Assembly: GCA_947564735.1 (NCBI GenBank)
Contig: CANOEC010000025.1
Coordinates: 1 to 59,539 of the forward strand
Reading direction: 5' to 3'
DNA from: an uncultured Lachnospiraceae bacterium
GTDB taxonomy: Bacteria > Bacillota > Clostridia > Lachnospirales > Lachnospiraceae
Length of the DNA stretch: 59,539 nucleotides
Below, in pieces: positions 25,513 to 58,053 of this stretch (positions are counted from its first letter, which is position 1; the number at the start of each line of letters is the position of its first letter). Below the pieces are notes generated by a model. The model was not told the DNA's origin and searched no databases. It saw only the letters and a list, made by a program, of their open reading frames with translations. The translations under genes were made by a program, and so were the position numbers.

Positions 25513-25550
25513 AATCTAAGCCTCACTTTTTGTTATAAAAAATCATTGCC

Positions 25551-25663
25551 CACACCGAGTTTGCGAAGCAAATCTCGCAAAGTTATTTGCGAAGCAAATT
25601 ACTCATCATTTCACACCGAGTTTGCGAAGCAAATCTCGCAAAGTTATTTGCGAAGCAAATTAC
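25551..25663. repeat. Tandem hairpin repeat, 61-bp period, two units
   Basis: Units start at 25551 and 25612 and both begin CACACCGAGTTTGCGAAGCA. A 26-nt core (25556-25581 and 25617-25642) is the exact reverse complement of the core at 33264-33289. ATTTGCGAAGCAAAT forms a palindromic hairpin in each unit. It fills the gap between two antiporter-subunit genes, so it is transcribed within the operon. Confidence 0.85.
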
Positions 25664-25668
25664 TTTTT

Positions 25669-27141
25669 TTACTGGAACGACCACAACCCGGCAGCCACTT
25701 CTTGGAAGAAATCTACAAGCGGCTGGGAACAAACACCGAATAATACCATAAAAACGGTAAATACAAACAACGGAAGAAGCATTTTCCAGTTAGGGTCTTT
25801 GATGCCGTTGAGCGTACTGTAGTCAAAGTCTTTGCTGGGAAAAAATGCGCGCACCACAATGCTCATCATATAGATGGCGGTCAAAAGTGCGGAAATCAGC
25901 AGGCAGGCAATGCCGAAGTAAGCGATGACATTGCCGCTCTCAACAGCCGCCGAAGCCAGATTCCATTTGCTGATGAATCCGGCAAGTCCGGGCACGCCCA
26001 TCAGTGCGAGAGCCGATACGGTAAAGATACCGAAGATACATGGCATCCTGTAGCCCAGCCCATCCAACTCGTGCACATAGTTGCGTTCTGTCTGGTGAAT
26101 GATGGCGCCGGCGCAGAAGAAGGAAGTAATCTTAATGACTGCGTGGAAGACCAGATGGGACAGTGCGCCCACCAGCCCAAGCGACGTCATGATGGCGGCA
26201 CCGAATAATATATAGGAGAGGTTGCTGATGGTGGAGTAGGCAAGCCGCCTCTTTAAATGCGTTTCCTTGACTGCCCGGCTGCAGCCGTAGACAATCGTAA
26301 ACATGGTAACGAGCATGACAACGTTCTGCGCCCATGTGCCTCTAAGGAAATCGGTTCCGAAGCTGTAGTAGGTCAGGCGTATGATAGCAAACGCGCCGGA
26401 TTTCACTACGGCAACGGCATGTAAGAGCGCCGTGACCGGAGTGGGCGCCACACCTGCCTGCGGCAGCCATGAGTTAAAGGGACAGACGGCAGCTTTGACG
26501 CCGAAGCCCATAAATGCCATCACGTAGACGAACAGGAGCACATTGGTCCGGTCGCCGATTTTGGCAGGAGATAAAATACCTCCTAATACAAAATCCGTGG
26601 TGGTGCCGTAGACGATAATCATAATCAGTCCGATAAAGGCAAAAGCGGCGCCGCCCAGCGAATAATACAAATATTTACGGCTGGCAAGAATGGCTTCCCG
26701 CGTGAGCGTATGCATGACAAGGGGTACGGTAACCAGCGTGAGCAGTTCATAGAAGAAGTACATGGTCAACAGGTTCGCCGAGAGGGCGATGCCTAAGGTG
26801 ACGCCGTAGGTTATCGTGTAGAAGAGAAAAAATACCTTTTCATGCTCTTCTTTTGTCATATATTCAAATGCATACAGCGTGGCAAAGGGCCACAGCGCGG
26901 ATACCAGTCCGGCAAAAACCATGCCCATGCCGTCCATCTTGAAGCTAATGGATAGATTACCGGTAAAATGAGCCAGAAGGAACGTGCTGTCCGAATGATG
27001 AAGCAACAGATACCATACCAGAATGCTATTTAGGATAACGGCGCATTCCAGAAAGATTTCCCAGTGGCTTCTCTTCTTAAAGGGAAGCAAAGGAACAAGG
27101 ATTCCCGCGATAAAAGGAATTAATATCACCAATATAATCAT
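25669..27141 (-). CDS. MrpD/NuoM-like antiporter-type subunit
   Basis: A 490-residue protein with about 14 TM helices. Conserved functional residues are visible: TM5 Glu (YFFYELLTLVTVPLVMHT), TM7 Lys (GFGVKAAVCPFNSWLPQAGVAPTPVTALLHAVAVVKSG) and ETHLKRRLAYSTISNLSYI. This is one of four antiporter-type subunits in the operon. It lies 22 bp after the upstream gene. The proline/glutamine variation in the WLPQAGVAPTP loop separates it from its neighbour. Confidence 0.88.
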   Translation of the reverse strand: MIILVILIPFIAGILVPLLPFKKRSHWEIFLECAVILNSILVWYLLLHHSDSTFLLAHFTGNLSISFKMDGMGMVFAGLVSALWPFATLYAFEYMTKEEHEKVFFLFYTITYGVTLGIALSANLLTMYFFYELLTLVTVPLVMHTLTREAILASRKYLYYSLGGAAFAFIGLIMIIVYGTTTDFVLGGILSPAKIGDRTNVLLFVYVMAFMGFGVKAAVCPFNSWLPQAGVAPTPVTALLHAVAVVKSGAFAIIRLTYYSFGTDFLRGTWAQNVVMLVTMFTIVYGCSRAVKETHLKRRLAYSTISNLSYILFGAAIMTSLGLVGALSHLVFHAVIKITSFFCAGAIIHQTERNYVHELDGLGYRMPCIFGIFTVSALALMGVPGLAGFISKWNLASAAVESGNVIAYFGIACLLISALLTAIYMMSIVVRAFFPSKDFDYSTLNGIKDPNWKMLLPLFVFTVFMVLFGVCSQPLVDFFQEVAAGLWSFQ

Positions 27142-27163
27142 AGCTTAAGTCTTCCCCTCTCTC

Positions 27164-28633
27164 CTATACAATCAGGCTGATAAACTGTGTGAGCCAGTGG
27201 ACAAGCTGCATCGGAAATAATCCGATTAATACTGACAATATTGTCATAATAAGGATTGGTATTGTCATAAAAAGGGACGGTTCCCGCTTTTTCAAATTCG
27301 CATAATCATAGTCTGCTCCCGGCAAAAAACCATGAATCGTAAGTGGCAGCAGATAACCAGCAGTCAGCAGGGCGCTGACTAAAAGGACGAGCGGACCCAG
27401 CCAGCGGAAAACGGGAATGCCACCCGACAGACTCCCAATCGCCAGATACCATTTGCTGACAAAACCGCCGGTGGGCGGGATGCCGATCAATCCTAAAGAA
27501 ACAATCGTATAACACCACATGGTAAGTGGCATTTCCTTGCCAATGCCGCGCAGTTCTTCCACTTTTGTTTTGCCGGTTGTGTAGATGATGGCGCCGGCGC
27601 AGAGGAAGAGGACAGCTTTGATCATGCCGTGGGCAATGACATGTAACAGTGAGCCGGTCAAGGATTCTGTTTCCAGACAGGCAAGACCGAACAGGATATA
27701 GGAAAGCTGACTCACGGTAGAGTAGGCGAGTCGTTTCTTTAATACAGGTTCTCTGTAGGCAAGCATGGAACCCATGAAGATTGTAATTAAGGTAAGAACA
27801 AGCCAAGCATTCTGTACCCATGTCCCACGCAGAAAAGAAGCGCCAAAAATATAGTAGACGACGCGGATGATTCCTAATACACCGGCTTTGACAATGACTG
27901 CGGAAAGAACGGCAGAAGCGGGTGCGGGCGCTACTGGATGGGCGGTCGGAAGCCATGCATGCATCGGAAACATACCGGCTTTGACGCCAAACCCAATAAT
28001 CATGACCATAGCGGCAATGAAGAGTATTCCAGCGTGTAATCCGGCGTTTTCATTTAGGACGCCGCCGGCGGTAAAGCGCAGTGTATCGCTGCTTTGGTAG
28101 ACAAAATAAATACCGAACAGCGCCATATATGCGCCGCACAGTGAGTAAAGCAGATATTTCAGTCCGGCGATAATCGCTTCGTGCTGTCCGTTGTGGAGCA
28201 CAAGCGGCATGGAGGTCAAGGTCAGCATTTCAAAAAATAAATAGAAGGTAACAAGGCTGCCCGCAAAGCAAAGCGCATTGAGCACGCCGAAGACAATCAG
28301 ATAAAAGCCATAGTAGCGCTTTTCCTTCGTCTCATGCTTCATATATTCAAAAGAAAAGAAACCCGCGCAGAGCATGATAATAAGGGTCACAACTGAGAAG
28401 ATAACGCTCATTTCATCGACGGCAAAAATGACCGGCAGAGAATCAGTCAACCAAAACAGTGTAAAGGAATCGCCGTATGAGAAAGTCAAGACGCAAATAA
28501 CCGCTACCCCGGTCAGAATGAATCCTGCTCCGGCAGTCAGTAACAGAGCTTTTCTATTGTGAAATTCTTTTCGGACGAGCAGATAAATACCTGCAAGGAC
28601 CGGAAAGAGGATTGCTATCAGGATAAAATACAT
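27164..28633 (-). CDS. MrpD-like antiporter-type subunit
   Basis: A 489-residue polytopic protein. TM5 Glu (FYLFFEMLTLTSMPLVLHN), TM7 Lys (GFGVKAGMFPMHAWLPTAHPVAPAPASAVLSAVIVKAG) and EPVLKKRLAYSTVSQLSYILFG are intact, so proton conduction is plausible. The gene lies 12 bp after its upstream neighbour and 22 bp before the next, a tight operon. It is closest in layout to MrpD/MbhH subunits of Mrp antiporters and membrane-bound hydrogenases. Confidence 0.88.
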   Translation of the reverse strand: MYFILIAILFPVLAGIYLLVRKEFHNRKALLLTAGAGFILTGVAVICVLTFSYGDSFTLFWLTDSLPVIFAVDEMSVIFSVVTLIIMLCAGFFSFEYMKHETKEKRYYGFYLIVFGVLNALCFAGSLVTFYLFFEMLTLTSMPLVLHNGQHEAIIAGLKYLLYSLCGAYMALFGIYFVYQSSDTLRFTAGGVLNENAGLHAGILFIAAMVMIIGFGVKAGMFPMHAWLPTAHPVAPAPASAVLSAVIVKAGVLGIIRVVYYIFGASFLRGTWVQNAWLVLTLITIFMGSMLAYREPVLKKRLAYSTVSQLSYILFGLACLETESLTGSLLHVIAHGMIKAVLFLCAGAIIYTTGKTKVEELRGIGKEMPLTMWCYTIVSLGLIGIPPTGGFVSKWYLAIGSLSGGIPVFRWLGPLVLLVSALLTAGYLLPLTIHGFLPGADYDYANLKKREPSLFMTIPILIMTILSVLIGLFPMQLVHWLTQFISLIV

Positions 28634-28645
28634 ATTGCACCTCCC

Positions 28646-30139
28646 TTACGCAAATGTGGAGAGTCCCTGCTGGATGATATCTACGACCGGCTGGGAACTG
28701 ATACCGAGTACCACATTTAATATAATAAAAGCAACCAGAACAGCAGCGTATATCGGTATATCCTTGAAAGTCACATTTGTGTAGGCGGTTTCGCCTATCG
28801 GTGTATATATACGGATAACCGTTTTCATAAAGTAAATCGCATTCAGAATCGTACTGATACCGAGGACAATAAGAGCCGGAAGCATTTTTGTGTGATTCTG
28901 GACAGCAGCCTGCGAGAATAACAGTTTGCTGATAAATCCGGAAAAAAGCGGTACACCTACCATGGAGAGGGAACCGACTGTAAAAGCCACGCCCGCCCAC
29001 TTGTTGCGGTAACCGGAACCGGTCAGTTCGATAAATTTGCGGCTTCCGCCGGATACATCTGTCAGACCTATGGCGGCAATGAACAGCAGGGATTTTGTCG
29101 CTGCGTGGGACAGGATATGAAAAATGCTGGCAATCATGCCGACCTGTGTACCCATACCGAAGCCCATGTAAATATAGCCAATCTGTGCTACCGACGAGTA
29201 GGCAATCATCCTTCGCACGTCATTTTCCCGGATGGCACTGATGGAACCAAATATCATTCCCATCAGACCGAACAGGAACAGGATATCGACAATCCGCGTA
29301 TCGTGATAAATATCAAATCCAATGACGCGATAAATAATTTTAATCAGCAGAAAAATGTATCCCTTGGACACCAGACTGGAGAGAATGGCGGCGGAGGATA
29401 CCGTCGAGTAACCGTACGCGTCCGGCAGCCAAGCATGGAACGGGAACAGCGCACTCTTAATGCATAAACCTACGGACATTAATACGATAGAGACAATCAG
29501 AGGAATCTGATAGGCATTGTTTGCTACAAGCAGGGCAACGGCTTCCTTCATATTGCTCATCAAGAGATGTCCGGTCAGATCATAGAGCATGCACAGACCG
29601 AGGAGCAGCATACCGGAGCCTAACAGACTCATAATCATATATCTGACGGCAGCTTCGATAGTCCTGCCGTTCTGTCGTATCATAATCAGTCCACAGGCAG
29701 CGATTGTGTTAATTTCTACAAACACATATGCCGTGAACATATCGTTGGTGTAGACAAGCGCAAGAAGGGAACTGAGCAGCAAATCGGACAGCACATAATA
29801 CAGATAGGTTTTGCCTTCTTCCACTTCCTCAACCAGCTTATGTCTGCCGCCGAACAAGGACAGCAGCATAATCACACAGAAAAATAACGCCATCAAAGCT
29901 TCCAGAGCGCCGGCACGGATTTCATTGCCCCAAGGCGCCGGGAATCTGCCCATCACATAGACGAAGGGCTGACCGATAGAGAGCGTGTAGGTCAGCGTAA
30001 AGGCGCTTAATAACGTATTGACCGTAAGGAGGGCGGCATTAAGCCACATGGCAGCCTTATCCTTAAGCCCTGAGCTGATAATACCTGCAAACAGGCATAA
30101 TATAATGGAAATACAAGGGAAATTCTGTATAAAATCCAT
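28646..30139 (-). CDS. MrpD/NuoN-like antiporter-type subunit
   Basis: A 497-residue protein. TM5 Glu appears in AYVFVEINTIAACGLIM and the TM7 Lys in SVGLCIKSALFPFHAWLPDAYGYSTVSSAAILSSLVSKG; the YGYSTVSSA loop makes it distinct from the two subunits downstream. ENDVRRMIAYSSVAQIGYIYMG and HILSHAATKSLLFIAAIG follow. Its start overlaps the stop of the MrpC-like gene by 1 bp, so the two are translationally linked. Confidence 0.88.
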   Translation of the reverse strand: MDFIQNFPCISIILCLFAGIISSGLKDKAAMWLNAALLTVNTLLSAFTLTYTLSIGQPFVYVMGRFPAPWGNEIRAGALEALMALFFCVIMLLSLFGGRHKLVEEVEEGKTYLYYVLSDLLLSSLLALVYTNDMFTAYVFVEINTIAACGLIMIRQNGRTIEAAVRYMIMSLLGSGMLLLGLCMLYDLTGHLLMSNMKEAVALLVANNAYQIPLIVSIVLMSVGLCIKSALFPFHAWLPDAYGYSTVSSAAILSSLVSKGYIFLLIKIIYRVIGFDIYHDTRIVDILFLFGLMGMIFGSISAIRENDVRRMIAYSSVAQIGYIYMGFGMGTQVGMIASIFHILSHAATKSLLFIAAIGLTDVSGGSRKFIELTGSGYRNKWAGVAFTVGSLSMVGVPLFSGFISKLLFSQAAVQNHTKMLPALIVLGISTILNAIYFMKTVIRIYTPIGETAYTNVTFKDIPIYAAVLVAFIILNVVLGISSQPVVDIIQQGLSTFA

Positions 30140-30513
30140 TACAGTCCCTCCTTCTTAAGCTGCTTGGATATTTCATCCAGATCCAGCGTATGATAGCGTC
30201 TGTAAAGACGGATAGTGAGCGAAAGCATCAAGGCGGATACGGATACGGACACGACGATACCCGTCAGCACCAGTCCGCTTGGAATCGGATTGATGTAAGC
30301 TTCCATATTCTGCACGCCGTCTGTAACGATGGGCGCGACCCGTCCCACAATATATCCCTTTTCCGCAAGAAAAAGATAAATCGCAGTATCCATAATATTC
30401 AGTCCGATAATTTTCTTAATCAGGTTCGTCTGAAGCAGCAGATTGCCGAAGCCGATTCCAAAGAGGAGCATAGCGACGGCTTCACCGTAATTTGTAAATA
30501 AATTTGCGCCCAT
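30139..30513 (-). CDS. mrpC: MrpC/NuoK-like subunit
   Basis: A 124-residue protein with three TM helices. GEAVAMLLFGIGFGNLLLQTNLIKKIIGLNIMDTAIYLFLAEKGY matches MnhC/NuoK with the pattern L..NLI.KIIGL. The following PIPSGLVLTGIVVSVSVSALMLSLTIRLYR is the family's TM3 block. ATG 30513 is chosen because it starts the family N-terminus and lies 1 bp after the MrpB gene stop; a longer frame from 30591 would lie inside that gene. Confidence 0.87.
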   Translation of the reverse strand: MGANLFTNYGEAVAMLLFGIGFGNLLLQTNLIKKIIGLNIMDTAIYLFLAEKGYIVGRVAPIVTDGVQNMEAYINPIPSGLVLTGIVVSVSVSALMLSLTIRLYRRYHTLDLDEISKQLKKEGL

Positions 30514-30514
30514 T

Positions 30515-31477
30515 TTACAGCCCTCCTCTTCTGAAAAGTGCATAAAAAGCATACATTGTGCAGGCAACCTCCAGCCCGACACAGATATCAATGGGCAGAA
30601 TGATGCCGCCGCTTAAGATATGCCCCGGAATGCCGAGAGGAATATGATTCTCAATACCGTTTGCTCCTGTCATGTAGAAGTAAGTGCCAATCAGTCCGTA
30701 CATGCATAGAGCGGTAATCTTGGCAATTTTGTAAATATGCTCGTCAAAGAAACGCTGTGTTTTCTTGAAACCGAAAGCGCTCACATACAAAATCAACCCC
30801 GCGCCCATGATAGCGCCGCCGGAAAAACCGCCGCCGGGGGATAAGTGTCCGTTTAAAATAATGTATATGCCAAAGATAAATATAATCGGGCAGAGGATGA
30901 AAGCGGTTCCCTGTAAAATGGCGTCATTTTTCGGCTCATACCGGCGGTCATTTAAAACCGCCTGCTTTTTGAGGATGGCGTCGTCCACCATCAGCAGTAT
31001 CATGACGCAGCAGGTAGCGATGAACAATACATTGGTCTCGCCAAACGTGTCGAAGGCACGATAAGTTAAAATCATGCCTGCCACAATGTTGAGCGCGCCC
31101 GTCTCCTGCAGTCCGCTTTCAATATAACGCTCGGACACCACATTGTTGACGGGGTTATCCGGATTGCCGCTGGGCGGCAGATAAGAAACAGTAATCAACA
31201 GTACGGCGACCAAAGCGATGCAGAACAGGACTGCCATAATAACATATACTTTATGAAAAAGATGCGCCGGTTTGTTGAGTTCATCGTCGTAAACCTTGTC
31301 ACGGCGCATCTGTGCTTCACGCATCCGTTCAATGATGGTTTCTTCCGGAAGAATGTTTTCCTCCTGTATATGCATTTCCACTTCACCAATATATGGGTCC
31401 TTGCTGCCGGACAGCCAGCGGAAAAAGCGGAAGGCAGTTGTTTTTTCATATTCTTTCTGTGGTCTTAGCTTACTCAC
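30515..31477 (-). CDS. MbhE-MrpB fusion subunit
   Basis: A 320-residue protein. The first 70 residues are a charged, soluble segment; one TM (VYVIMAVLFCIALVAVLLITVSYLP) and an MbhE-like part (GALNIVAGMILTYRAFDTFGETNVLFIATCCVMILLMVDD) follow; residues about 190-320 are an MnhB domain (ILNGHLSPGGGFSGGAIMGAGLILYVSAFGF...LSGGIILPIDICVGLEV). In Mbh hydrogenases MbhE and MbhF are separate and in Mrp they are parts of MrpA and MrpB; here they are joined. It overlaps the DUF4040 gene upstream by 8 bp. Confidence 0.85.
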   Translation of the reverse strand: MSKLRPQKEYEKTTAFRFFRWLSGSKDPYIGEVEMHIQEENILPEETIIERMREAQMRRDKVYDDELNKPAHLFHKVYVIMAVLFCIALVAVLLITVSYLPPSGNPDNPVNNVVSERYIESGLQETGALNIVAGMILTYRAFDTFGETNVLFIATCCVMILLMVDDAILKKQAVLNDRRYEPKNDAILQGTAFILCPIIFIFGIYIILNGHLSPGGGFSGGAIMGAGLILYVSAFGFKKTQRFFDEHIYKIAKITALCMYGLIGTYFYMTGANGIENHIPLGIPGHILSGGIILPIDICVGLEVACTMYAFYALFRRGGL

Positions 31478-31748
31478 TTTGCGAGCCCTCCTCCTGCTGT
31501 TTCTCTTTTTCGATACGAATCGCCTGAATCTTTTTCAGCGTGGCAAAGAACAAAATACTGGTCACGCCTGCGCCGACGGCAGCTTCCGTGATTGCCAGAT
31601 CGGGAGATTCCAGACAGACCCACAGGATGGACATAATCAGACTGTAGGACATATATATTAGGATGGAATTTAACAGATTCTTGGAAAAACTGACGGAGAC
31701 TGCACATACAATCAGAAATCCCATTAAAATACATTGAAATAAAGTCAT
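31470..31748 (-). CDS. MbhD/DUF4040 subunit
   Basis: A 92-residue protein with three TM helices; it carries ESPDLAITEAAVGAGVTSILFFATLKKI, the hallmark of DUF4040, corresponding to the C-terminal part of MrpA or to MbhD. It overlaps its neighbours by 4 bp upstream and 8 bp downstream, a sign of a tightly coupled operon. Confidence 0.88.
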   Translation of the reverse strand: MTLFQCILMGFLIVCAVSVSFSKNLLNSILIYMSYSLIMSILWVCLESPDLAITEAAVGAGVTSILFFATLKKIQAIRIEKEKQQEEGSQSE

Positions 31749-32146
31749 GCTTCTTCGCCTCCCGTTTCATTTTGTGCGCTTTTCTTTTCCGCCTCCAGTT
31801 CCGCTTCCAACGACGCAAGATTCGTGTAAACATGGCAGTGGGACGTGAGGTTTTCATTTGTTGCAACTTCCAGTCTTGCCAGTACATGGGAAGAAACAGG
31901 AGAGGCAAACCATAGAAATATGACGATGAGCAGCAGCTTCAAGGAGGTGAAATTAAAGCCGGAAAAAATAATCAGCCCAATCATGCACGATGCAATGCCG
32001 AGCGTGTCGCCCATGGCAGTCGCATGCATTCGGTTTAGGACATATTGAAAATGAAATACACCGAATAGTTCCGTAAAGAAGATGACCAGTCCGCAGATTA
32101 AGAAGGTACAGCCTGCAATTAATCTAATCCATTCAAATATTCCCAT
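31745..32146 (-). CDS. mrpG: MrpG/MnhG-like subunit
   Basis: A 133-residue protein with three TM helices: IRLIAGCTFLICGLVIFFTELFGVFHFQYVLNRMHATAMGDTLGIASCMIGLIIF. RMHATAMGDTLG corresponds to the MnhG signature RxHAxTxxxTLG. A glutamate-rich tail follows. ATG 32146 is chosen by family N-terminus; it overlaps the MrpF stop by 14 bp with a GGAGGTAC site just before it. Confidence 0.88.
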   Translation of the reverse strand: MGIFEWIRLIAGCTFLICGLVIFFTELFGVFHFQYVLNRMHATAMGDTLGIASCMIGLIIFSGFNFTSLKLLLIVIFLWFASPVSSHVLARLEVATNENLTSHCHVYTNLASLEAELEAEKKSAQNETGGEEA

Positions 32147-32465
32147 CTGATGTACCTCCTTCGTTACCGGTATCCGGTTCTTCTGATTTGTGACGTTTTT
32201 CTTCATAAATACCAATGTATACTTTAGAAAGGACAACGACGGAGAGGAAGCTGATCATGGCATAAACCAGACAGACATCTACCAGATAGCCTTCGTTAAG
32301 CATAAGAGCGAGTACGGCAATCATGACCATGACCATTGTCCCCATCATATTTACCGATACAAGGCGGTCGGCAATGCGGGGACCTCTGATTGCACGGGCA
32401 AGACAAACAAACAGCATGACCGCCAGTATAAGAAGTATGGTGATGTAGATGTAGTGGTATATCAT
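32133..32465 (-). CDS. mrpF: MrpF/MnhF-like subunit
   Basis: A 110-residue protein with three TM helices: ITILLILAVMLFVCLARAIRGPRIADRLVSVNMMGTMVMVMIAVLALMLNEGYLVDVCLVYAMISFLSVVVLSKVY. The segment RGPRIADRLVSVNMMGT is the MnhF signature. A charged cytoplasmic tail follows. It lies 12 bp after the MrpE gene. Confidence 0.9.
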   Translation of the reverse strand: MIYHYIYITILLILAVMLFVCLARAIRGPRIADRLVSVNMMGTMVMVMIAVLALMLNEGYLVDVCLVYAMISFLSVVVLSKVYIGIYEEKRHKSEEPDTGNEGGTSDGNI

Positions 32466-48506: not shown

Positions 48507-50861
48507 ATGGATGATAATTTAAATCAGTACGACGGCGGATCAAATCGTGGTCCCGGCGGACCGGGTGGACCAAACGGTCCGGGCGGTCCGAATAATAACG
48601 GCGGACCGAATGGAGGCGGGAGCGATCCCCGCAAGCAAAGTCTGATTATGCTCGTAGTAGCAGCTTTGGTTACACTGTTGTGTATCAGCATGTTTATGAA
48701 AATGCTGACTGGAGCGAGCAATCAGGAGATTACCTACAATGCCTTTGTAAAGATGGTAGAGGATGGTGACGTCAAGAGCGTCACGGTTGAGACCGACAGA
48801 GTGATTATTTATCCGAAGGAAGAAAAGGCGAGTTCTCCCTTTATGTACGGGTATGGTCTTGGAACCATGACTTACTATACGGGTAAGATGGAAGATGACG
48901 ATACATTGACAAAACGCTTGCTGGAACATGACATTGATGTGAACAAACAGACGTCGGACAGTTCCAGTGTGATTATGACGGTGCTGCTTTACTATGTTCT
49001 CCCGATTCTTTTGATGTGGGGGCTTCTCAGTCTGTTGTTCAGGAGGATGGGAGGCAAAGGCGGCCCGATGGGCGTAGGCAAGAGTACGGCGAAAGCTTAT
49101 GTGCAGAAAGAGACCGGAATTACATTCAAAGATGTGGCGGGCGAGGACGAAGCGAAAGAGTCGCTGGTGGAAGTTGTAGATTTTCTGCATAATCCCGGCA
49201 AGTACGCCAAAATTGGCGCGAGACTGCCTAAAGGTGCCCTCTTAGTCGGTCCTCCCGGAACGGGTAAGACACTGCTTGCCAAAGCGGTAGCGGGTGAAGC
49301 GCATGTGCCGTTTTTCTCGCTGTCCGGTTCTGACTTTATTGAGTTATATGTCGGCGTGGGAGCGTCCCGTGTACGTGACCTTTTTAAAGAGGCGGAGAAG
49401 AATGCGCCTTGTATCGTGTTTATTGACGAGATTGACGCCATCGGCAGAAGCAGGGATTCCAAGTATGGCGGCGGCAATGAAGAAAGAGAACAGACATTGA
49501 ACCAGCTTTTGTCAGAGATGGACGGTTTCGACGGCAGAAAGGGAATTATCATTCTGGCGGCGACCAACAGACCGGAGATTCTGGATAAAGCGTTGCTTCG
49601 TCCGGGACGTTTCGATAGGAGAATCATTGTAGATAAACCCGATTTAAAAGGGCGAGTGGAGATTCTTAAGGTACATGCCAAAGATGTGCGGATGGATGAG
49701 ACGGTTGATTTGAATGAGATTGCACTTGCAACCTCCGGAGCGGTCGGCTCTGACCTTGCCAATATGATTAACGAGGCGGCAATCAATGCCGTTAAGACGG
49801 GCAGGGAATATGTGAGCCAGAAAGATTTGTTTGACGCCGTTGAGCAGGTACTTGTAGGAAAAGAGAAGAAAGACCGCGTCATGAGCAAGGAGGAGCGTAA
49901 GATTGTATCCTATCATGAAGTGGGTCATGCGCTGATTAGCGCCTTGCAGAAAAATTCCGAGCCGGTGCAGAAGATTACGATTGTGCCAAGAACAATGGGC
50001 GCCCTTGGATATGTCATGCATGTGCCGGAAGAAGAGAAATATCTGGATACGGAGGCAGAGCTGCGTGACAGACTGGTAAGCCTTCTGGGCGGACGTGCAG
50101 CAGAGGAAGTTGTATTCGATACGGTGACCACGGGGGCGGCGAATGATATTGAGCAGGCGACGAGTCTCGCACGCAACATGATTACACGTTTTGGTATGAG
50201 CAAGAAATTTGGTTTGATGGGACTTGCGACAGTCGAAAGCCAGTATCTGGACGGAAGGGCGTCTTTGACATGCTCTGATGTGACAGCGGCAGATATTGAT
50301 ACGGAAGTCATGAAAATGCTTCGTGACAGTTATAAGCAGGCGAAGAAGTTACTCAAAGAAAACCGCGAGATTATGGATAAGCTGGCGGCACATCTGATAG
50401 AGAAAGAAACGATTACAGGCAAAGAGTTCATGAAGATTTTCCGAAAGGAAAAAGGACTTCCGGAGCCGGAAGAGGATGAGAAAGAAGGCAAAAAGGACGG
50501 GGAGAAAGTTTTGGAGAAGCCTGTGGAGCCGCCGAAGGCGGAGGAACAGGGAGCAGAGTCGCCGCAAGTCGGACAGCCATCTCAGAATATGCCGGGCGGG
50601 CAGCCGCCGTTACAAGGGCAGCAGAATGTATCCGACGGGCAGCCTGCACAGCAGGATGTATCTGGCGGAGAATCCGGACAGCAGAATGTATCCGACGGGC
50701 AGCCTGCACAGCAGAATGTACCCGGCGGACAGTCTGGGCAGCAGAATGTACCAAATGGACAGTCCGGACAGGAGCCGCGTTGGATGCCGCCCACACAGCC
50801 ACAGACGGAGAACCGTGGAATTTTTTCACAGGCGCCGGAACCGAAGGATGATAACAAGTAG
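48507..50861 (+). CDS. ftsH: FtsH-type membrane AAA+ zinc metalloprotease with unusual low-complexity ends
   Basis: A 784-residue membrane protease that degrades misfolded membrane and regulatory proteins. A Gly/Pro/Asn-rich tail (residues 8-40) precedes TM1 (SLIMLVVAALVTLLCISMF); an extracytoplasmic domain and TM2 (VIMTVLLYYVLPILLMWGLLSLLF) follow. AAA domain: GPPGTGKTLLAKA, CIVFIDEIDAIG, TNRPEILDKALLRPGRFDR. Zinc site: SYHEVGHALIS. The C-terminus (about 655-784) is an acidic/Lys linker and a Gln/Gly/Pro repeat built of decapeptides. Start follows AGTGAGGA. Confidence 0.95.
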   Translation: MDDNLNQYDGGSNRGPGGPGGPNGPGGPNNNGGPNGGGSDPRKQSLIMLVVAALVTLLCISMFMKMLTGASNQEITYNAFVKMVEDGDVKSVTVETDRVIIYPKEEKASSPFMYGYGLGTMTYYTGKMEDDDTLTKRLLEHDIDVNKQTSDSSSVIMTVLLYYVLPILLMWGLLSLLFRRMGGKGGPMGVGKSTAKAYVQKETGITFKDVAGEDEAKESLVEVVDFLHNPGKYAKIGARLPKGALLVGPPGTGKTLLAKAVAGEAHVPFFSLSGSDFIELYVGVGASRVRDLFKEAEKNAPCIVFIDEIDAIGRSRDSKYGGGNEEREQTLNQLLSEMDGFDGRKGIIILAATNRPEILDKALLRPGRFDRRIIVDKPDLKGRVEILKVHAKDVRMDETVDLNEIALATSGAVGSDLANMINEAAINAVKTGREYVSQKDLFDAVEQVLVGKEKKDRVMSKEERKIVSYHEVGHALISALQKNSEPVQKITIVPRTMGALGYVMHVPEEEKYLDTEAELRDRLVSLLGGRAAEEVVFDTVTTGAANDIEQATSLARNMITRFGMSKKFGLMGLATVESQYLDGRASLTCSDVTAADIDTEVMKMLRDSYKQAKKLLKENREIMDKLAAHLIEKETITGKEFMKIFRKEKGLPEPEEDEKEGKKDGEKVLEKPVEPPKAEEQGAESPQVGQPSQNMPGGQPPLQGQQNVSDGQPAQQDVSGGESGQQNVSDGQPAQQNVPGGQSGQQNVPNGQSGQEPRWMPPTQPQTENRGIFSQAPEPKDDNK
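50621..50770 (+). repeat. 30-bp tandem repeat in the ftsH 3' end (five units)
   Basis: Units at 50621, 50651, 50681, 50711 and 50741 encode QNVSDGQPAQ, QDVSGGESGQ, QNVSDGQPAQ, QNVPGGQSGQ and QNVPNGQSGQ. Units 1 and 3 are identical at DNA level, a 60-bp higher period that points to recent expansion. Confidence 0.9.
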
Positions 50862-50974: not shown

Positions 50975-52834
50975 ATGTTTGATTTTGATGAGGAATTGAA
51001 AAAACTTCCCAATTCTCCGGGCGTTTATTTGATGCATGATGCGGCTGATACAATTATTTATGTGGGGAAGGCAGTGAACCTGCATAACCGCGTGCGCTCC
51101 TATTTCCGCAAAATTGTCGGAAGAGGTCCGCAGATTGATAAGATGGTGCAGCAGATTGCGCGGTTTGAATATATTGTGACAGACTCCGAACTGGAAGCGC
51201 TTGTATTGGAAAATAATCTGATTAAAGAGTACAGCCCGAAATATAATACGATGCTCAAGGATGATAAGACGTACCCATATATTAAAGTGACGATGGGCGA
51301 AGAATATCCGCGGATTCTTTTTTCCAGAGAGATGAAAAAGGACCGTTCCAAATATTTCGGACCGTATACCAGCGCGGCGGCTGTCAAAGACACGATAGAG
51401 CTGATGAATAAACTGTATCAGCTAAAAACCTGCAATCGGAAGCTGCCCCGGGTCGGCTTGGAGCGTCCATGCTTAAACTATCATATCAAGCAGTGTATGG
51501 CTCCCTGTCAGGGATATATCAGCAAGGAAGAATACCGTGAGAGGGTGGAACAGGCGCTGGATTTTTTGAATGGAAATTATAAACCGCTGTTGAAAAGTTT
51601 AGAAGAAAAAATGACGCAAGCGTCAGAAAATATGGAATTTGAAGAGGCGATACGTTACCGTGACCTCTATAACAGTGTCAAAAGCGTGGCGCAGAAACAG
51701 AAAATTACAGACTCAGCCGGAGAAGATAAGGATATTCTTGCACTGGCAAAGGATGATACGGATGCGGTGGTGCAGGTGTTTTTTGTGCGGGATGGCAAAC
51801 TGATTGGCAGAGAGCACTTCTATATGACGCATGTGCAGGGGTATGACAATGCGCAGATTCTGCTGGATTTTGTGAAACAGTTTTATGCGGGAACGCCTTA
51901 CATTCCGAAGGAGCTGATGCTGCAGGAGGAGATTGCGGATATTGAGATTCTGGAGAAATGGCTGAGTACCCGTAAAGGCGGCAGAGTATACATACGGATA
52001 CCAAAGAAAGGGGCAAAGGAGAAGCTGGTGGAGCTGGCAGCTCAGAACGCACATCTTATCTTGAGTCAGGATAAAGAACGCATAAAACGGGAAGAGGGAA
52101 GAACAATTGGTGCGGTAAAAGAGATTGCGGCATTGCTTGAGCTGGAGCATGTGAACCGTATGGAGGCTTTTGATATTTCTAACATTAGCGGTTTTGCCAA
52201 TGTGGGTTCCATGGTGGTCTTTGAAAAAGGGAAGGCGAAGCGCAGCGACTACCGTAAGTTCCGCATTCAGTCCGTATCGGGACCGGATGACTATGCGTGC
52301 ATGAAAGAAGTGCTCACGAGGCGGTTTGTACACGGTATGGCGGAAAAAGAAGAACTGAACCGCAAAGAGATGGATCACGAGTTTGGGAGTTTTACGAAAT
52401 TTCCGGATTTACTGTTAATGGACGGCGGCAGGGGACAGGTCAACATTGCCCTTCAGGTATTGGAAGAGCTGCATCTTGATATTCCGGTGTGCGGTATGGT
52501 GAAGGACGATAATCACCGCACCAGAGGATTGTACTATCATAATGTGGAGATTCCCATAGACACGCACTCGGAAGGCTTTAAGCTGATTACCAGAATACAG
52601 GACGAGGCGCACCGGTTTGCCATCGAATACCACCGTTCACTGCGCTCCAAGGCGCAGGTGAAGTCCGTGTTAGACGAGATACCGGGAGTGGGTCCGGCGA
52701 GACGCAAGGCGCTCATGAAACACTTCGGTTCCATCAATGAAATCAAGGAAGCATCGGTTGAGCAGCTGTGCGAAGTGCCGGAAATACCGGAGCATATCGG
52801 GCAGCAGATTTATGAGTTTTTTAGGAAAGAGTAA
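50975..52834 (+). CDS. uvrC: Excinuclease ABC subunit C
   Basis: A 619-residue nucleotide-excision repair nuclease. GIY-YIG domain: [34 protein letters not shown]; Cys-containing region [29 protein letters not shown] motif [26 protein letters not shown]; endonuclease domain with [21 protein letters not shown] and [13 protein letters not shown]; two helix-hairpin-helix motifs at the C-terminus ([40 protein letters not shown]). The last 34 bp of the gene belong to a 40-bp sequence duplicated at 53461-53500 beyond a TA pair. Confidence 0.97.
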
Positions 52835-52840
52835 GGTGCT
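52801..52840. repeat. 40-bp direct repeat, left copy (uvrC 3' end)
   Basis: Begins GCAGCAGATTTATGAGTTTT and covers the last 11 codons of uvrC, its stop and 6 bp beyond. It is identical to 53461-53500. The two copies start 660 bp apart and enclose one toxin-antitoxin pair. Confidence 0.95.
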
Positions 52841-52843
52841 ATT

Positions 52844-53122
52844 TTATTTTCCGAATAAATCAGCATGACTGCCAGTTGCGGTAGCTGACAGAATGAGTGT
52901 ATCTTCATAAATTTGATACATAAGAAGCCAGTCTGGTTCTATGTGACATTCCCTAAAGTCATTTAGATTGCCAGTTAATGAATGATCTCTATATTGGGCG
53001 GGTAATTGACTGCCACTTGCAAGCATAGAAAGTATGTTGACAAGTTTTTGCATATCCTTGCCTCTTTTTTTCATCAATTTGGCATCTTTTTTCATGCGGT
53101 TAGTGTATACAATTTTATACAT
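52844..53122 (-). CDS. YafQ/RelE-type mRNA interferase toxin
   Basis: A 92-residue toxin that cuts mRNA on the ribosome. Residues matching the YafQ active site are present: QYRDHSLTGNL (His), ECHIEPDWLLMYQ (His, Asp, Trp) and GSHADLFGK (His). MYKIVYTNRMKKDAKLMKKRG is the usual N-terminus. It follows its antitoxin gene by 3 bp and ends 10 bp from the uvrC stop on the opposite strand. Confidence 0.94.
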   Translation of the reverse strand: MYKIVYTNRMKKDAKLMKKRGKDMQKLVNILSMLASGSQLPAQYRDHSLTGNLNDFRECHIEPDWLLMYQIYEDTLILSATATGSHADLFGK

Positions 53123-53125
53123 AAG

Positions 53126-53389
53126 TTAATCCTCTAACATGGAAGCAACCGCATCTTCAGCAGTGGTAAATGGACCATGAAGATTTTGCTGGAATCTACT
53201 GTCATAAACCGCGTCTTGAAGCGAATAGGGGACAGCCCTATGTTGTACTGAAAACGGGATGCCTGCATTTTCAATAGACGCGTTTAGAAAAATGCGAATC
53301 GCTGTTGATGTATCCATACCAAGACTGGAAAATAATGCATCTGCCTGTTTTTTTAATGTATCATCAATACGAATTTGTAATGTCGCCAT
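53126..53389 (-). CDS. RelB/DinJ-type antitoxin
   Basis: An 87-residue protein starting MATLQIRIDDTLKKQADALFSSLGMDTSTAIRIFLNASIENAGIPF, a ribbon-helix-helix domain of RelB/DinJ type; the tail (TTAEDAVASMLED) binds the toxin. ATG 53389 follows GGAGGTGT; the longer frame from 53446 would include promoter bases. It is cognate to the YafQ-type toxin downstream. Confidence 0.93.
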   Translation of the reverse strand: MATLQIRIDDTLKKQADALFSSLGMDTSTAIRIFLNASIENAGIPFSVQHRAVPYSLQDAVYDSRFQQNLHGPFTTAEDAVASMLED

Positions 53390-53417
53390 ATTACACCTCC
53401 AATGATTTAGTAATTTG

Positions 53418-53446
53418 ATTGTAACATATAGATATTGAAGAAGCAA
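53418..53446 (-). promoter_or_regulatory. Promoter of the DinJ/YafQ-type operon
   Basis: On the minus strand TTGCTT (53441-53446), exact 17-nt spacer, TACAAT (53418-53423). It lies inside the segment enclosed by the 40-bp repeats, so the cassette carries its own promoter. Confidence 0.7.
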
Positions 53447-53460
53447 TGATAATTACCATT

Positions 53461-53500
53461 GCAGCAGATTTATGAGTTTTTTAGGAAAGAGTAAGGTGCT
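53461..53500. repeat. 40-bp direct repeat, right copy
   Basis: Exact copy of 52801-52840. It also supplies the last codons (LTLS and stop) of the truncated AgrC-like frame on the minus strand. Confidence 0.95.
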
Positions 53501-53975
53501 CTTGATTTCTCAGCATGATAATCGTGTGAAAAGAAGTATTTTCAGCGTCATAATACATCTGGATGTCTCCGCAGTATTTTTCGACAATTCGTGTGATACT
53601 TCTCAATCCGTACCCATGGCGAAGGGAGTCCTTTTTGCTGCTGGGAAGCCTGCCGTCTTTTGAAAAAGGAGAAACGCGGCAGGAATTGATTACGGATATG
53701 AACGTAAAAGGGGTAGAAGCCTGTCTGGTGATGTGAAGCTGAATACAGCCTTCAGATATTTTTTCGGCTGCTTCTACAGCGTTGTCCAGTAAATTACAGA
53801 AGAGAGCAGTGATATCGTTGTCTTCCATAAAATCAATCACAGAACAGCGTATATCCAGTTGGAAATCAATCTTTTTTCACTACACTGCTGTTGATATTGA
53901 TAGATGACCAGATTGAGCAGCTTATTGTCACAAATACGGGCAGTTTTGCCAAAAGATGGCGACTGGATTAACTGA
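53481..53975 (-). pseudogene. Truncated, frameshifted AgrC-like histidine kinase
   Basis: On the minus strand bases about 53975 to 53870 encode AYIHQLIQSPSFGKTARICD and NKLLNLVIYQYQQQCSEK. At an A-run the frame changes to IDFQLDIRCSVIDFMEDNDITALFCNLLDNAVEAAEK, then GYGLRSITRIVEKYCGD, the GHKL ATPase of AgrC-type quorum-sensing kinases. The sensor/TM half is missing, and the 3' end runs into the uvrC-derived repeat. Its 5' edge abuts the truncated agrB on the opposite strand. Confidence 0.8.
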
Positions 53976-53978
53976 TGG

Positions 53979-54500
53979 ATGTATGCAGCTCATAGCTTTA
54001 TCATGACTCTGGCGCCGCTTGGTCTGGCATTAGTGGTTGGCGCGATATTTGAGTGTATAGTATCAGCAGTGACAATTATTCTTCCATTTATGATGATTAG
54101 AAAGTTTGGTGGAGGATACCATGCACAAAGTGCATGGAAGTGCCTAATCAGTTCAACGATCATACTGTGTGGATACATATGGGTTTCTGAATATATTACA
54201 TATGGATATAGGCTGGGATTTACGATGATTGTAGCAGCTCTATCGTTGATAAACAATAGTCCTATCGATTCTGAGAACAGAAAACTTGATATGCAAGAGC
54301 AGCGCATGTATAAGAGAATCACGATTGTATTAGTGATTTTTAACGTGCTGATAAGCCTTGTTTGCTATAAGTGTGGGAGAGAAAGGGTAGCAACAGGTTT
54401 AGCGATGGGAATTATTTTGACGGGTGGACTACAGCTTCCGTGCTTGCATATTCAATTACATTTGATAAGTTTAAAGTATCTGATACCTCATGTAAATTGA
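53979..54500 (+). pseudogene. Truncated AgrB-like processing peptidase
   Basis: The reading frame encodes a membrane cysteine protease of the AgrB type. The catalytic region is visible as RKFGGGYHAQSAWKCLISS, with His and Cys seven residues apart as in AgrB; TM helices follow. The N-terminus before YAAHSFIMTLAPLG is missing (stop just upstream), and after TGGLQLPC the sequence appears to join an unrelated frame. No AgrD-type peptide gene is found. The fragment may still be translated but is unlikely to be complete. Confidence 0.75.
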
Positions 54501-54670
54501 CAATGGATGCCGGAGCAGGGAGCGAAGCGGGTTCTGAATATTATGTAACGCTAATGAAAGCGGGCAAGATAGCCGATACAAGAGCGAAAACAGTTATTTA
54601 TTATACAGGAGGAGTTTATGAGTACACTTTTACGGGGCTAAGTACATCCGCTCAATACTATTTAGTGTAA
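54437..54670 (+). pseudogene. 3' fragment of an unidentified gene fused behind agrB
   Basis: In a frame different from agrB, bases about 54437-54670 encode ASVLAYSITFDKFKVSDTSCKLTMDAG and onward to TFTGLSTSAQYYLV with stop. It reads like the C-terminal end of a secreted beta-rich protein. No proper start exists (a GTG at 54371 lies in agrB). I do not recognise the family. Confidence 0.45.
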
Positions 54671-54698
54671 GAAAGCAGGAAAAAGGAATGGAAAAAAT

Positions 54699-55370
54699 AT
54701 GGACACTTTAAAGGTAACGTCGCTTGTAAAAGATTATATATGCGGAGAAAAATTGGTGAGAGTTCTGGATCACGTTGACTTTGGCGTGGCTCATGGAGAG
54801 TTTGTTGCAATTATGGGGAAGTCGGGAAGTGGAAAAACAACTTTGTTAAATATCATTGGTGGAATTGATAATCCCACAGAAGGAAGTATCTCTGTTAACG
54901 GAGTTGAATTGACAACCCTTTCCAATGAAGAGAAGACGGAATTTCGCAGAGGTAATATTGGTTATATTTTTCAAAACTATAATTTGCTGCCAGTATAAAA
55001 TGGATATGAAAATATTATTTTACCTTCCAGACTGGGTGGAGAAGAGCTGGATAAAGAATTACTTGGTGAAATTGTGAATGCATTAGAAATAGAAGAGCAG
55101 CTCTATCAGATGCCCGATACAATGTCGGGTGGTGAACAGCAGCGGATTGCTATAGCGAGGGCAATTTATACAAGACCGGAAATGATACTCGCCGATGAAG
55201 CGACAGGCAGTCTGGATTCTGCGAGCGGGAAGGCGGTCATAAGTCTCTTAAAACAGATGGGAAAAAGATATGACCAGACGATAATGATTGTTACACATGA
55301 TTACGAGGTTGCTAAGGCGGCGGATAGGATTTTATATATTGAAGATGGAAAACTTTATACAAAGAAATAG
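54699..55370 (+). pseudogene. ABC transporter ATPase (LolD/MacB type) with one in-frame TAA
   Basis: A 223-codon gene that is complete except for TAA at 54996-54998. Walker A IMGKSGSGKTTLLNI, Q-loop IFQNYNLLPV*NGYENI, signature MSGGEQQRIAIARAI, Walker B MILADEATGSLDS and H-loop IMIVTHDYE are all present. Relatives usually have Phe or Tyr at the TAA, so a single base change of TAT or TAC explains it. It precedes an FtsX-type permease by overlap and resembles bacteriocin-immunity or peptide-exporting systems. Confidence 0.85.
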
Positions 55371-58053
55371 GAATGACAAATCAAATATTTCGCCAATTCA
55401 TATGCTGGCACAGGCATATTATAAAAATGACAGACGCAGATATAGCATGGTTGTGATTGCTATGTCTTTGACAATTGTATTGATTTTTGGTGTGTTTAGC
55501 AGTGTATATGGCAAATTCAATGCGGATAGACAAAAAGCTGTTTGCGAGCTTGGTATGACAGCATCGGCATGGCTTGAAAATGGGATGGAAGAACAGGAAC
55601 GGCAAATAGAACACCTTTCTTTTATCAATAAAGTTGGGCGTTATAAGAAATGTGGCGTATTGACAGATAACGGGAGAATGGTCGGCGAGTGCGTTTACAC
55701 GGACGAGGAAACATTTAACAGTATGCTGCAGCCTGCTTATGGAAAAATCATCGGAAGGTATCCGCAAAATAGCAATGAAGTCATGATGGCGCTAAGCAGT
55801 CTCCAGCATTTAGGAATTGAGAATCCTGATGTTGGTACAAAACTAACTATGAGATTTGACTGGTATGGGATGGAGGAAAATCATACCGGAGTACAAGAAC
55901 TAGTCCTATCAGGGTTTTATGAAGATTTGACGGCTTATTCGTCAGCGATGCCGCCAATTTATGTTTCTGCGGAAAGATTAGAGGAAAGTAATATTGCCTT
56001 ATATCCACAAAGGATTTTAATAGAAACGCAGTTGGGTTTACCGGGCAATCAACTAAAAGAATTGCTGTATGACCAGATTGCTTTACCACAAAATAATCAA
56101 GTATTTGTGTGTATGGACTCACCGCAATATGATGCAGTCAAAAATATGCTGGGCGGATATGGAATGGCAATTTCCTTTTGCTTTTTATTTTTGCTCGGTA
56201 TGTTTTTGTTAATCTATAATGTGTTGTTTCTATCACTTGGGCAGGATACGAGGCAGTTTGGGATATTTCATATTGTGGGTGGTACAATCAGGCAGTTGTA
56301 TGCTGTCATCTGGCTCATAGGCGTTAAAATTGCCCTAAGGGGGCTTTTGATTGGTGCGGGATTAGGAAGTATTCTGATTTCAATTGGCATGTCTATATTG
56401 CTGAAGGGATTGTATTCGGGGAAATTGGAGTCGGCACCATCCCTGCATGTCTATCATCCGGGGTTATTGCTAATAGCAGGTTTGTTTGCGACTGGAACGC
56501 TATTTGCTGCATTGACGATGGTTATTAGGCGGTTGGCGGACACTACACCTGTCCAAACCCAGTTCCATGGAAATGGTGACGGTAAGAAGCTTGGAAAAAG
56601 TAAGAGAAAATCCAAGGGTTATTTTAAATATCATTGGAAAAAGAATATTGTATTGTACATGGCATGGAAGAATACGCTTAGATTAAAAAGAAAGATGTGT
56701 TATACACTTGTTTCAATGATATCTGGCTGTCTCGTAGCGTTGATTGGAACAATGATTATTACTGGTGGAGACCGCACGAATGAAATTGATAAAATGTATT
56801 CTGATTTTACAATTGGTGTGACAAAGGATGCACTGGTTGATTTTCCGTATCAGAAGCCTCTGCCCGTTGCGAAGGAAACAATATATGATTATTCGCTAAT
56901 TTCAGATGAATTAATCCATAACATGATGCTGATTGCCGGCACAGAAAATATGCAATATACATATGGCTGTTTTGCAAGGATAAATGATGTAGAAGAGTCT
57001 TCCTTTTATGGGCTTGACTCTGTAGAGCGGGGCAAAATTAAGAAAGAAACTGCTTTTGTACCTATCCGTGGCAATGAATACGGACTTTATGACGGTGTTG
57101 GTGCAGGCTTCCATGAACTGGGGATTATACAGGTCATCGATGAGAATGAGGTGGAAGCATTACAAAAATATATGAAAGAAAATCAATTGAATGTGAATAT
57201 CGAAACATTTACAGATAGAAATGAGAATGGAGCTTTTATCATCCATGAGGGAGCTTTATCTGAAAAAGAACAGAAAAAGACAGAGGAATCAATTGGAAAA
57301 TCCCTATACTTATATTCAGTATTTGATTTACACGAACGGGAAAATACATATGTAGAAAGAGGGCAGCTTGTAAATTGCGGCTATTTGGACCGGACGATGA
57401 AGGACTTTCCCGATATTACGCAGACTTGGTCTGGACAGAATGTGCTGTACTTTCTGGTAACAGAAGATACTTTTCATAAATTGGATGCATTTCCATTACA
57501 AATCTTTCAGCTTGAATTTGATGTAAATCAAAGCAAAGAAAGCAAAATCAGGAGTGCATTGAAACAATTGATTGCGGAGGAAAATAGTAAGTTTCAAAGC
57601 GAAAAGAAACAGAATGTAGATTTATTGTTTCTTACATGTAAAGCGGATATCTTAGCAGAGCAGAAAGGATATCTTGGTGCGGGGAAAATGGCAATTGGCA
57701 TACTCAGCGCATCACTGCTGGTTATGGGCATCATGAATTATTTTAATGTGATAGTGACTGACCTCTTAGTACGGCAGCAGGAGTTTTCTATTTTAAATTG
57801 TGTTGGAGCGACTCGGAAATTTATTTTGAAAATGCTCAGAATAGAGGGCTTGCTGTACTGGCTTGCCGTAAATTTGTTTCTTTTATCCGTTGGCAATCTA
57901 ATCATATATTTGGTGGGAGAAGCGATGAAGAGGAAAATAGATTATTTTGTGTTTTCCTATCCCATTATTCCGTATTTGGTTTTGAGTTTGTCAATGCTGT
58001 TGGCTTGTATGATGATGCCAGCGGTTCTATTTAAAAAGATGAGAGAAAAATAA
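55345..58053 (+). CDS. FtsX-type ABC permease, large form
   Basis: A 902-residue permease. TM1 (YSMVVIAMSLTIVLIFGVFSSVYG), an extracellular domain (about 60-265), a three-helix FtsX block (GMAISFCFLFLLGMFLLIYNVLFLSL, IKIALRGLLIGAGLGSILI-like and LLLIAGLFATGTLFAALTMV), a second TM (TLVSMISGCLVALIGTMIITGG), a second extracellular domain, and a C-terminal FtsX block (MAIGILSASLLVMGIMNYFNVI, LLYWLAVNLFLLSVGNLIIYLVG, YLVLSLSMLLACMMMPAVLF). The start at 55345 overlaps the ATPase gene by 26 bp; ATG 55402 is an alternative. AT-richer than its neighbours, suggesting transfer. Without a working ATPase it may not function. Confidence 0.83.
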   Translation: MENFIQRNRNDKSNISPIHMLAQAYYKNDRRRYSMVVIAMSLTIVLIFGVFSSVYGKFNADRQKAVCELGMTASAWLENGMEEQERQIEHLSFINKVGRYKKCGVLTDNGRMVGECVYTDEETFNSMLQPAYGKIIGRYPQNSNEVMMALSSLQHLGIENPDVGTKLTMRFDWYGMEENHTGVQELVLSGFYEDLTAYSSAMPPIYVSAERLEESNIALYPQRILIETQLGLPGNQLKELLYDQIALPQNNQVFVCMDSPQYDAVKNMLGGYGMAISFCFLFLLGMFLLIYNVLFLSLGQDTRQFGIFHIVGGTIRQLYAVIWLIGVKIALRGLLIGAGLGSILISIGMSILLKGLYSGKLESAPSLHVYHPGLLLIAGLFATGTLFAALTMVIRRLADTTPVQTQFHGNGDGKKLGKSKRKSKGYFKYHWKKNIVLYMAWKNTLRLKRKMCYTLVSMISGCLVALIGTMIITGGDRTNEIDKMYSDFTIGVTKDALVDFPYQKPLPVAKETIYDYSLISDELIHNMMLIAGTENMQYTYGCFARINDVEESSFYGLDSVERGKIKKETAFVPIRGNEYGLYDGVGAGFHELGIIQVIDENEVEALQKYMKENQLNVNIETFTDRNENGAFIIHEGALSEKEQKKTEESIGKSLYLYSVFDLHERENTYVERGQLVNCGYLDRTMKDFPDITQTWSGQNVLYFLVTEDTFHKLDAFPLQIFQLEFDVNQSKESKIRSALKQLIAEENSKFQSEKKQNVDLLFLTCKADILAEQKGYLGAGKMAIGILSASLLVMGIMNYFNVIVTDLLVRQQEFSILNCVGATRKFILKMLRIEGLLYWLAVNLFLLSVGNLIIYLVGEAMKRKIDYFVFSYPIIPYLVLSLSMLLACMMMPAVLFKKMREK

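Follow-up and report, generated by a model that had tools for sequence, protein, structure and literature searches.

A DinJ-YafQ-type toxin-antitoxin operon inserted at the uvrC 3′ end between 40-bp direct repeats, and an excess of flanking repeats around YafQ cassettes

The toxin-antitoxin (TA) locus that follows uvrC in an uncultured Lachnospiraceae bacterium is an insertion, in which a TA operon and one copy of a 40-bp direct repeat have been added. It is probable that this insert duplicated its target, in that a fragment was joined without long homology, the gene end was kept and addiction aided the retention of the insert. A survey of YafQ cassettes from other genomes further indicates that the repeat-flanked insertion at uvrC is not a one-off. 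The window, by which we mean the whole stretch of 59,539 nucleotides that was analyzed, corresponds to contig CANOEC010000025.1, and the features of the locus are given in Table 1.

Table 1. Features at the uvrC 3′ end, in window coordinates
Feature	Position	Strand	Details
uvrC	50975..52834	+	619 aa, intact
Direct repeat copy 1	52801..52840	+	final 34 bp of uvrC including the stop codon (52801-52834), then 6 bp (52835-52840)
Inserted unique stretch	52841..53460		620 bp
YafQ-family toxin, predicted	52844..53122	-	92 aa; PF15738 E 1.7e-33
RelB/DinJ-family antitoxin, predicted	53126..53389	-	87 aa; PF04221; TIGR02384 72.9 bits (cut-off 45.65)
Imperfect palindrome GCAATGATAATTACCATTGC	53443..53462		upstream of the antitoxin; by-eye reading
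Direct repeat copy 2	53461..53500	+	adjoins the kinase as in cassette-free relatives; provides the stop codon of the kinase ORF
GHKL-domain kinase ORF	53481..53840	-	PF14501 E 2e-22; 119 aa, fragment, convergent to uvrC

The two copies of the repeat are identical and are offset by 660 bp. When up to 3 mismatches were allowed, the 40-mer was found exactly twice in the draft genome (4,524,511 bases, 102 contigs), both times at this locus, and a reversed control pattern gave 0 matches. The GC content is 36% in the 620-bp insert versus 47% in uvrC, and the stop codon of the kinase ORF (53481-53483) lies inside copy 2. A first-pass annotation of this DNA had described an exact recurrence of the uvrC end, a duplication longer than that left by a transposon, and an intervening stretch holding only a DinJ/YafQ-type pair with its own promoter. 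The recurrence is borne out by copies that are identical and unique to this locus in the draft genome, their 40 exact bp exceed the duplication made by a classical transposon, and the intervening 620 bp do consist of the pair and little else. The promoter did not emerge: scanning 52750-53560 for consensus sequences gave no promoter-like site on the minus strand, and a promoter belonging to the pair is thus unproved.

The predicted toxin scores above the cut-off of TIGR02385 and slightly under that of TIGR00053 (83.8 bits, cut-off 87.25), and it matches the Escherichia coli YafQ structure 4ml2 (E 2e-19). The antitoxin ORF is directly upstream of the toxin ORF on the same strand, with 3 bp between them, and a GGAGG stretch can be seen by eye ahead of its start. 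Both protein families and the antitoxin-first order are those of the DinJ-YafQ type II TA system (E. coli YafQ structures 4ml2 and 4q2u); the proteins are ordinary, and the insertion signature alone is unusual. The final two bases of the palindrome upstream of the antitoxin are the initial two of repeat copy 2, and this element is a possible operator as well as a possible source of microhomology.

We compared the uvrC loci of 78 genomes of the genus, our own included, in 71 of which the uvrC 3′ end was detected. None of the 70 other congeners with a detected end had a YafQ match beside uvrC, with matches counted at E 1e-10 or better and with the proviso that contigs ending near uvrC could conceal a neighbor. 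The YafQ matches of the congeners lie on contigs other than that of uvrC, the exception being G071, where the match is ~8 kb away. Six relatives (G011, G014, G030, G012, G017 and G019) have uvrC paired with the GHKL kinase and no TA; the distance between the uvrC and kinase matches is 3 bp in G011 and G014, 10 bp in G030 and 107 bp in G012, and in G011 and G014, as read from the sequence, the ends of the two convergent frames have a few bases in common. Because the cassette is absent beside uvrC in 70 relatives and six of these keep the uvrC-kinase pairing without it, it must be regarded as an insertion, and it follows from the arrangement in the relatives that the right-hand junction, from copy 2 to the kinase, is ancestral. 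The first-pass annotation had likewise read the locus as a minimal TA cassette inserted with preservation of the uvrC end, and had named a comparison of related uvrC loci as one way to check this, with a pair fixed there in all relatives as the contrary outcome. That outcome was not found (0/70), uvrC is intact, and sites without the cassette were indeed seen, in a comparison that is between species and involves six relatives.

In G017 and G019 (L038 and L039), a different stretch of ~1.6 kb, with an ORF starting inside it, lies at the uvrC-kinase junction, which may thus be an insertion-prone spot. The nine nearest homologues of the TA pair within the genus are at other sites and have 76-81% DNA identity to it; by eye, those in G058, G011 and G017 sit after an ABC-transporter-like gene. 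No flanking exact repeat of at least 11 bp was present at any of these nine, and since these genus-level homologues have no flanking repeats, most YafQ cassettes do not carry the signature. Homologous cassettes in G001, G041 and G047 (L047, L048 and L049) have a whole antitoxin ORF and no full toxin ORF listed, a pattern in which the toxin decays first.

The frequency of such repeats was determined by taking, in fixed windows, the longest exact word that the sequence following the toxin shares with the sequence preceding the antitoxin, and a flanking exact repeat of at least 18 bp was scored as positive; this threshold was chosen after the first set had been seen, and only the second set was unaffected by it. 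Of 570 relatives found, the best 80 were kept. The discovery set comprised 153 distinct YafQ cassettes, 148 of which had enough flank (5 were dropped for short flanks). The second set was drawn from 121 PF15738 places, from which 30 and a further 60 loci were taken and the own-genome locus L231 was set aside, leaving 89, of which 3 were dropped for short flanks to give 86; the 31 places left out by hand were near contig ends, partial, low-scoring, of this genus, or surplus. Flanking repeats were found at 11/148 cassettes of the discovery set, or at 10/147 without the window, which had prompted the test, as against 4/2060 random intervals in the same loci, these four coming from 2 loci. With the same windows and threshold, the second set gave 4/86 cassettes versus 0/1468 random intervals.

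When one geometry was applied to all classes, 14/146 YafQ cassettes of the first set and 4/84 of the second were positive, and neighboring ORFs were positive in 7/363 cases, in 4/154 loci (L101, L144, L162 and L181). The difference between YafQ cassettes and neighboring ORFs (18/230 versus 7/363, p 0.0006, a value that is too small because the cassettes are partly related) represents a smaller excess than that over random intervals. The remaining classes, of 30 loci each, are rough controls in which the longest ORF spanning the locus center served as anchor, with family membership unchecked: the HicA loci gave one weak positive of 19 bp (1/28), the PIN loci one weak, low-complexity positive of 27 bp (1/30), and the acetyltransferase loci, representing an accessory-gene background, none (0/29). 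A rule for all TA families was rejected, as HicA and PIN showed no clear excess; the excess of flanking repeats holds for YafQ, and we do not claim it for TA systems more widely.

The repeats differ from case to case in both length and sequence, with 13 of them ranging from 28 to 234 bp, and no site is shared among these 13 (mean longest shared word 6.22, versus 6.27 in shuffles). Extended through mismatches, the repeats reach 168 bp in L321, 195 bp in L122 and 234 bp in L199. Their spacing is 567-1089 bp, which corresponds to about one bare operon. In six cases (the window, L151, L182, L199, L122 and L318), one copy runs as far as the stop codon of an adjacent ORF, in L122 to the second base of that codon, and in L321 a copy covers an ORF start. 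The draft genome itself contains a second DinJ-YafQ pair (L115; G000 contig C18, 13500-16000), upstream of which 59 bp from within the terminal 89 bp of a GNAT acetyltransferase ORF are repeated, with 57/59 positions identical. In G011, G014, G017 and G019, the sequence shown after the corresponding GNAT gene has no TA. In G058, a TA with a partly missing toxin region lies beside the same GNAT end and is followed by sequence resembling that of G011; no second copy of the repeat was found at this G058 locus.

Some of the positives are not clear-cut. By eye, L141, L162 and L195 may be dispersed repeats, the positive at L142 may be a ribosome-binding-site match, and that of the neighboring ORF in L101 is a duplicated stretch around the locus's own TA. 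In L072, a dispersed repeat of ~104 bp (1269-1372; query 770-873) with many copies in the genus lies beside the direct repeat and not within it. Next to the YafQ cassette of L144, a PIN-domain gene (3445-4400) lies between 74-bp imperfect repeats with 64 identical positions, one copy of which is in the 3′ part of the valyl-tRNA synthetase gene (valS).

We infer the molecular pathway of the insertion as follows. Template switching at microhomology could have attached a DNA fragment bearing the operon in the absence of long homology; alternatively, the fragment could have been captured in a break whose long staggered ends were then filled in. In gene-dense DNA, such events would persist if the duplication takes in the end of a neighboring gene: where two genes converge, an insertion alone would deprive one of them of its end, while duplication of the shared end would give both a stop codon. 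Here the kinase may have had no function to lose, its ORF being no more than a fragment of 119 aa. New direct repeats would be prone to slip or recombine and so to delete what lies between them. A cell that depended on the antitoxin would be penalized by such a deletion, so that TA inserts would outlast other inserts between repeats; the proposed retention by addiction draws on general TA biology. A TGCT occurs shortly before the toxin end in four relatives (L041-L044), as it does at the left junction here, and at the right junction a GC is common to the palindrome upstream of the antitoxin; both could hint at microhomology. Ku end joining was considered as a route and rejected, since no Ku was found at E 0.001 in the one draft genome searched, that of this bacterium.

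Target duplication is not the only way in which uvrC sequence could have come to lie at both borders. Incoming DNA in which the TA already adjoined a uvrC end could have entered by recombination with the resident gene at one border and by an illegitimate joint at the other, a combination that is known from transformation and that would directly account for uvrC sequence on both sides. However, no plausible donor was seen, the TA being beside uvrC in none of the 70 relatives, and the two copies are identical, whereas the uvrC ends of the relatives differ by several bases, which makes such homology-assisted insertion unlikely.

Site-specific integration is still less probable. Here, a recombinase acting in trans would have recognized the uvrC 3′ end, the 40-bp copies would be attL and attR, and the TA would be either a mini-element or what is left of an island that was deleted. 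Integrases commonly target gene 3′ ends, a 40-bp core that restores the gene end would fit, and copy 2 retains the ancestral junction. Nevertheless, none of the 9 ORFs profiled between 50,975 and 58,053 matched an integrase or transposase family, in agreement with the statement in the first-pass annotation that no integrase is present. The uvrC-end pattern was matched in 51/78 genomes and, outside our own genome, never twice on one contig; nor did it occur in any viral contig, where only exact matches were sought. Moreover, the repeats at the 13 cassettes have no common site and vary widely in length. Searches for a carrier gave no DNA match to a plasmid or phage and no relative of the toxin in viral contigs. 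An insertion sequence or classical transposon is not indicated either: the 9 profiled ORFs gave no transposase family match, there is no inverted-repeat pair at the cassette ends, and the duplication is as long as 40 bp. Of the site-specific or homology-driven insertion put forward in the first-pass annotation, the insertion itself therefore stands, and the site-specific component is not supported, given the absence of a shared site in the 13 repeats compared, the lack of a second uvrC-end match on any one contig of the other genomes matched, and the location of the nine nearest homologues at other sites without flanking repeats.

A tandem duplication of the uvrC end together with an older, adjoining TA, followed by partial loss, had also been suggested and would likewise yield a direct repeat enclosing the TA, but it is highly improbable because none of 70 relatives has the pair next to uvrC, and relatives have the kinase directly after uvrC. 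An assembly artefact is the least credible explanation, for although the draft assembly is divided into 102 contigs, misjoins on both sides would require a TA that already had 40 bp of uvrC at its flanks, and a like signature is present in other assemblies and at another gene of the same genome.

Duplication of the target by the TA insert, our preferred reading, can be compared with known systems. The pdif modules are TA operons between XerC/XerD sites and resemble the cassette described here in being small and in lacking an integrase; they have a common recombination site, whereas no shared site emerged when the 13 repeats were compared with one another. Insertion of restriction-modification genes with long target duplication was reportedly described by Nobusato in 2000 and Furuta in 2010. 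The available portions of further studies describe restriction-modification systems inserted with a long, variable target duplication (PMC3874152, PMC3031569, PMC1643837, PMC4978471), with repeats "in the order of 100 bp" in length. As far as these portions go, those inserts resemble ours in being addiction-type units within long, variable direct repeats, in having an insert-free site in a related genome and in the lack of a described recombinase of their own; they differ in that the present insert is a 620-bp type II TA operon with a repeat of only 40 bp, shown across species and not strains. The exact 40-bp repeat, the insert-free site in six relatives and the varying targets at 13 repeats all agree with this mode of insertion. 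According to the accessible part of another report, a ParE/ParD-like TA of Microcystis aeruginosa lies between 152-bp direct repeats (PMC7935541), identical on both sides and with one copy just after a host gene, as here; that part presents a single case in which the repeats carry inverted repeats, and it proposes no target duplication. Among the matches listed from open-licence PubMed Central papers, there was no recognizable report of long target duplication for a type II TA family, nor was a systematic excess of repeats around such a family found.

These comparisons bear on an open question, namely how bare TA operons come to occupy many chromosomal sites without a visible mobile element. 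We tentatively suggest that YafQ-type TA operons are mobile as bare operons, which would move without a recombinase or long homology, duplicate ~30-230 bp of their target, leave gene ends whole and then be locked in, since a deletion invited by the repeats would cost the cell its antitoxin. If this is true, restriction-modification genes would use the same insertion route, which could serve addiction modules generally in the colonization of chromosomes. The signature, which is present at 4/86 to 11/148 YafQ cassettes and almost never at random intervals, would be a direct handle on TA spread, and hints at how TA genes can spread when they bring along neither integrase nor transposase. TA operons would thereby be linked to the mode of movement of restriction-modification genes, with the prediction that addiction protects inserts located between deletion-prone repeats.

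Other features of the window were noted in passing. The kinase fragment belongs to a decayed agr-like cluster (53481-58053) that also comprises a short AgrB, an ABC ATPase interrupted near 54,997 by an in-frame stop, and an FtsX-like permease. The gene preceding uvrC, ftsH-like by eye, has a repetitive Q/N/G-rich tail (50620-50800) with repeats of the QQNVSDGQPAQ type. On the minus strand at 23308-32465, a run of membrane-protein ORFs resembles, by eye, an Mrp-type antiporter cluster.
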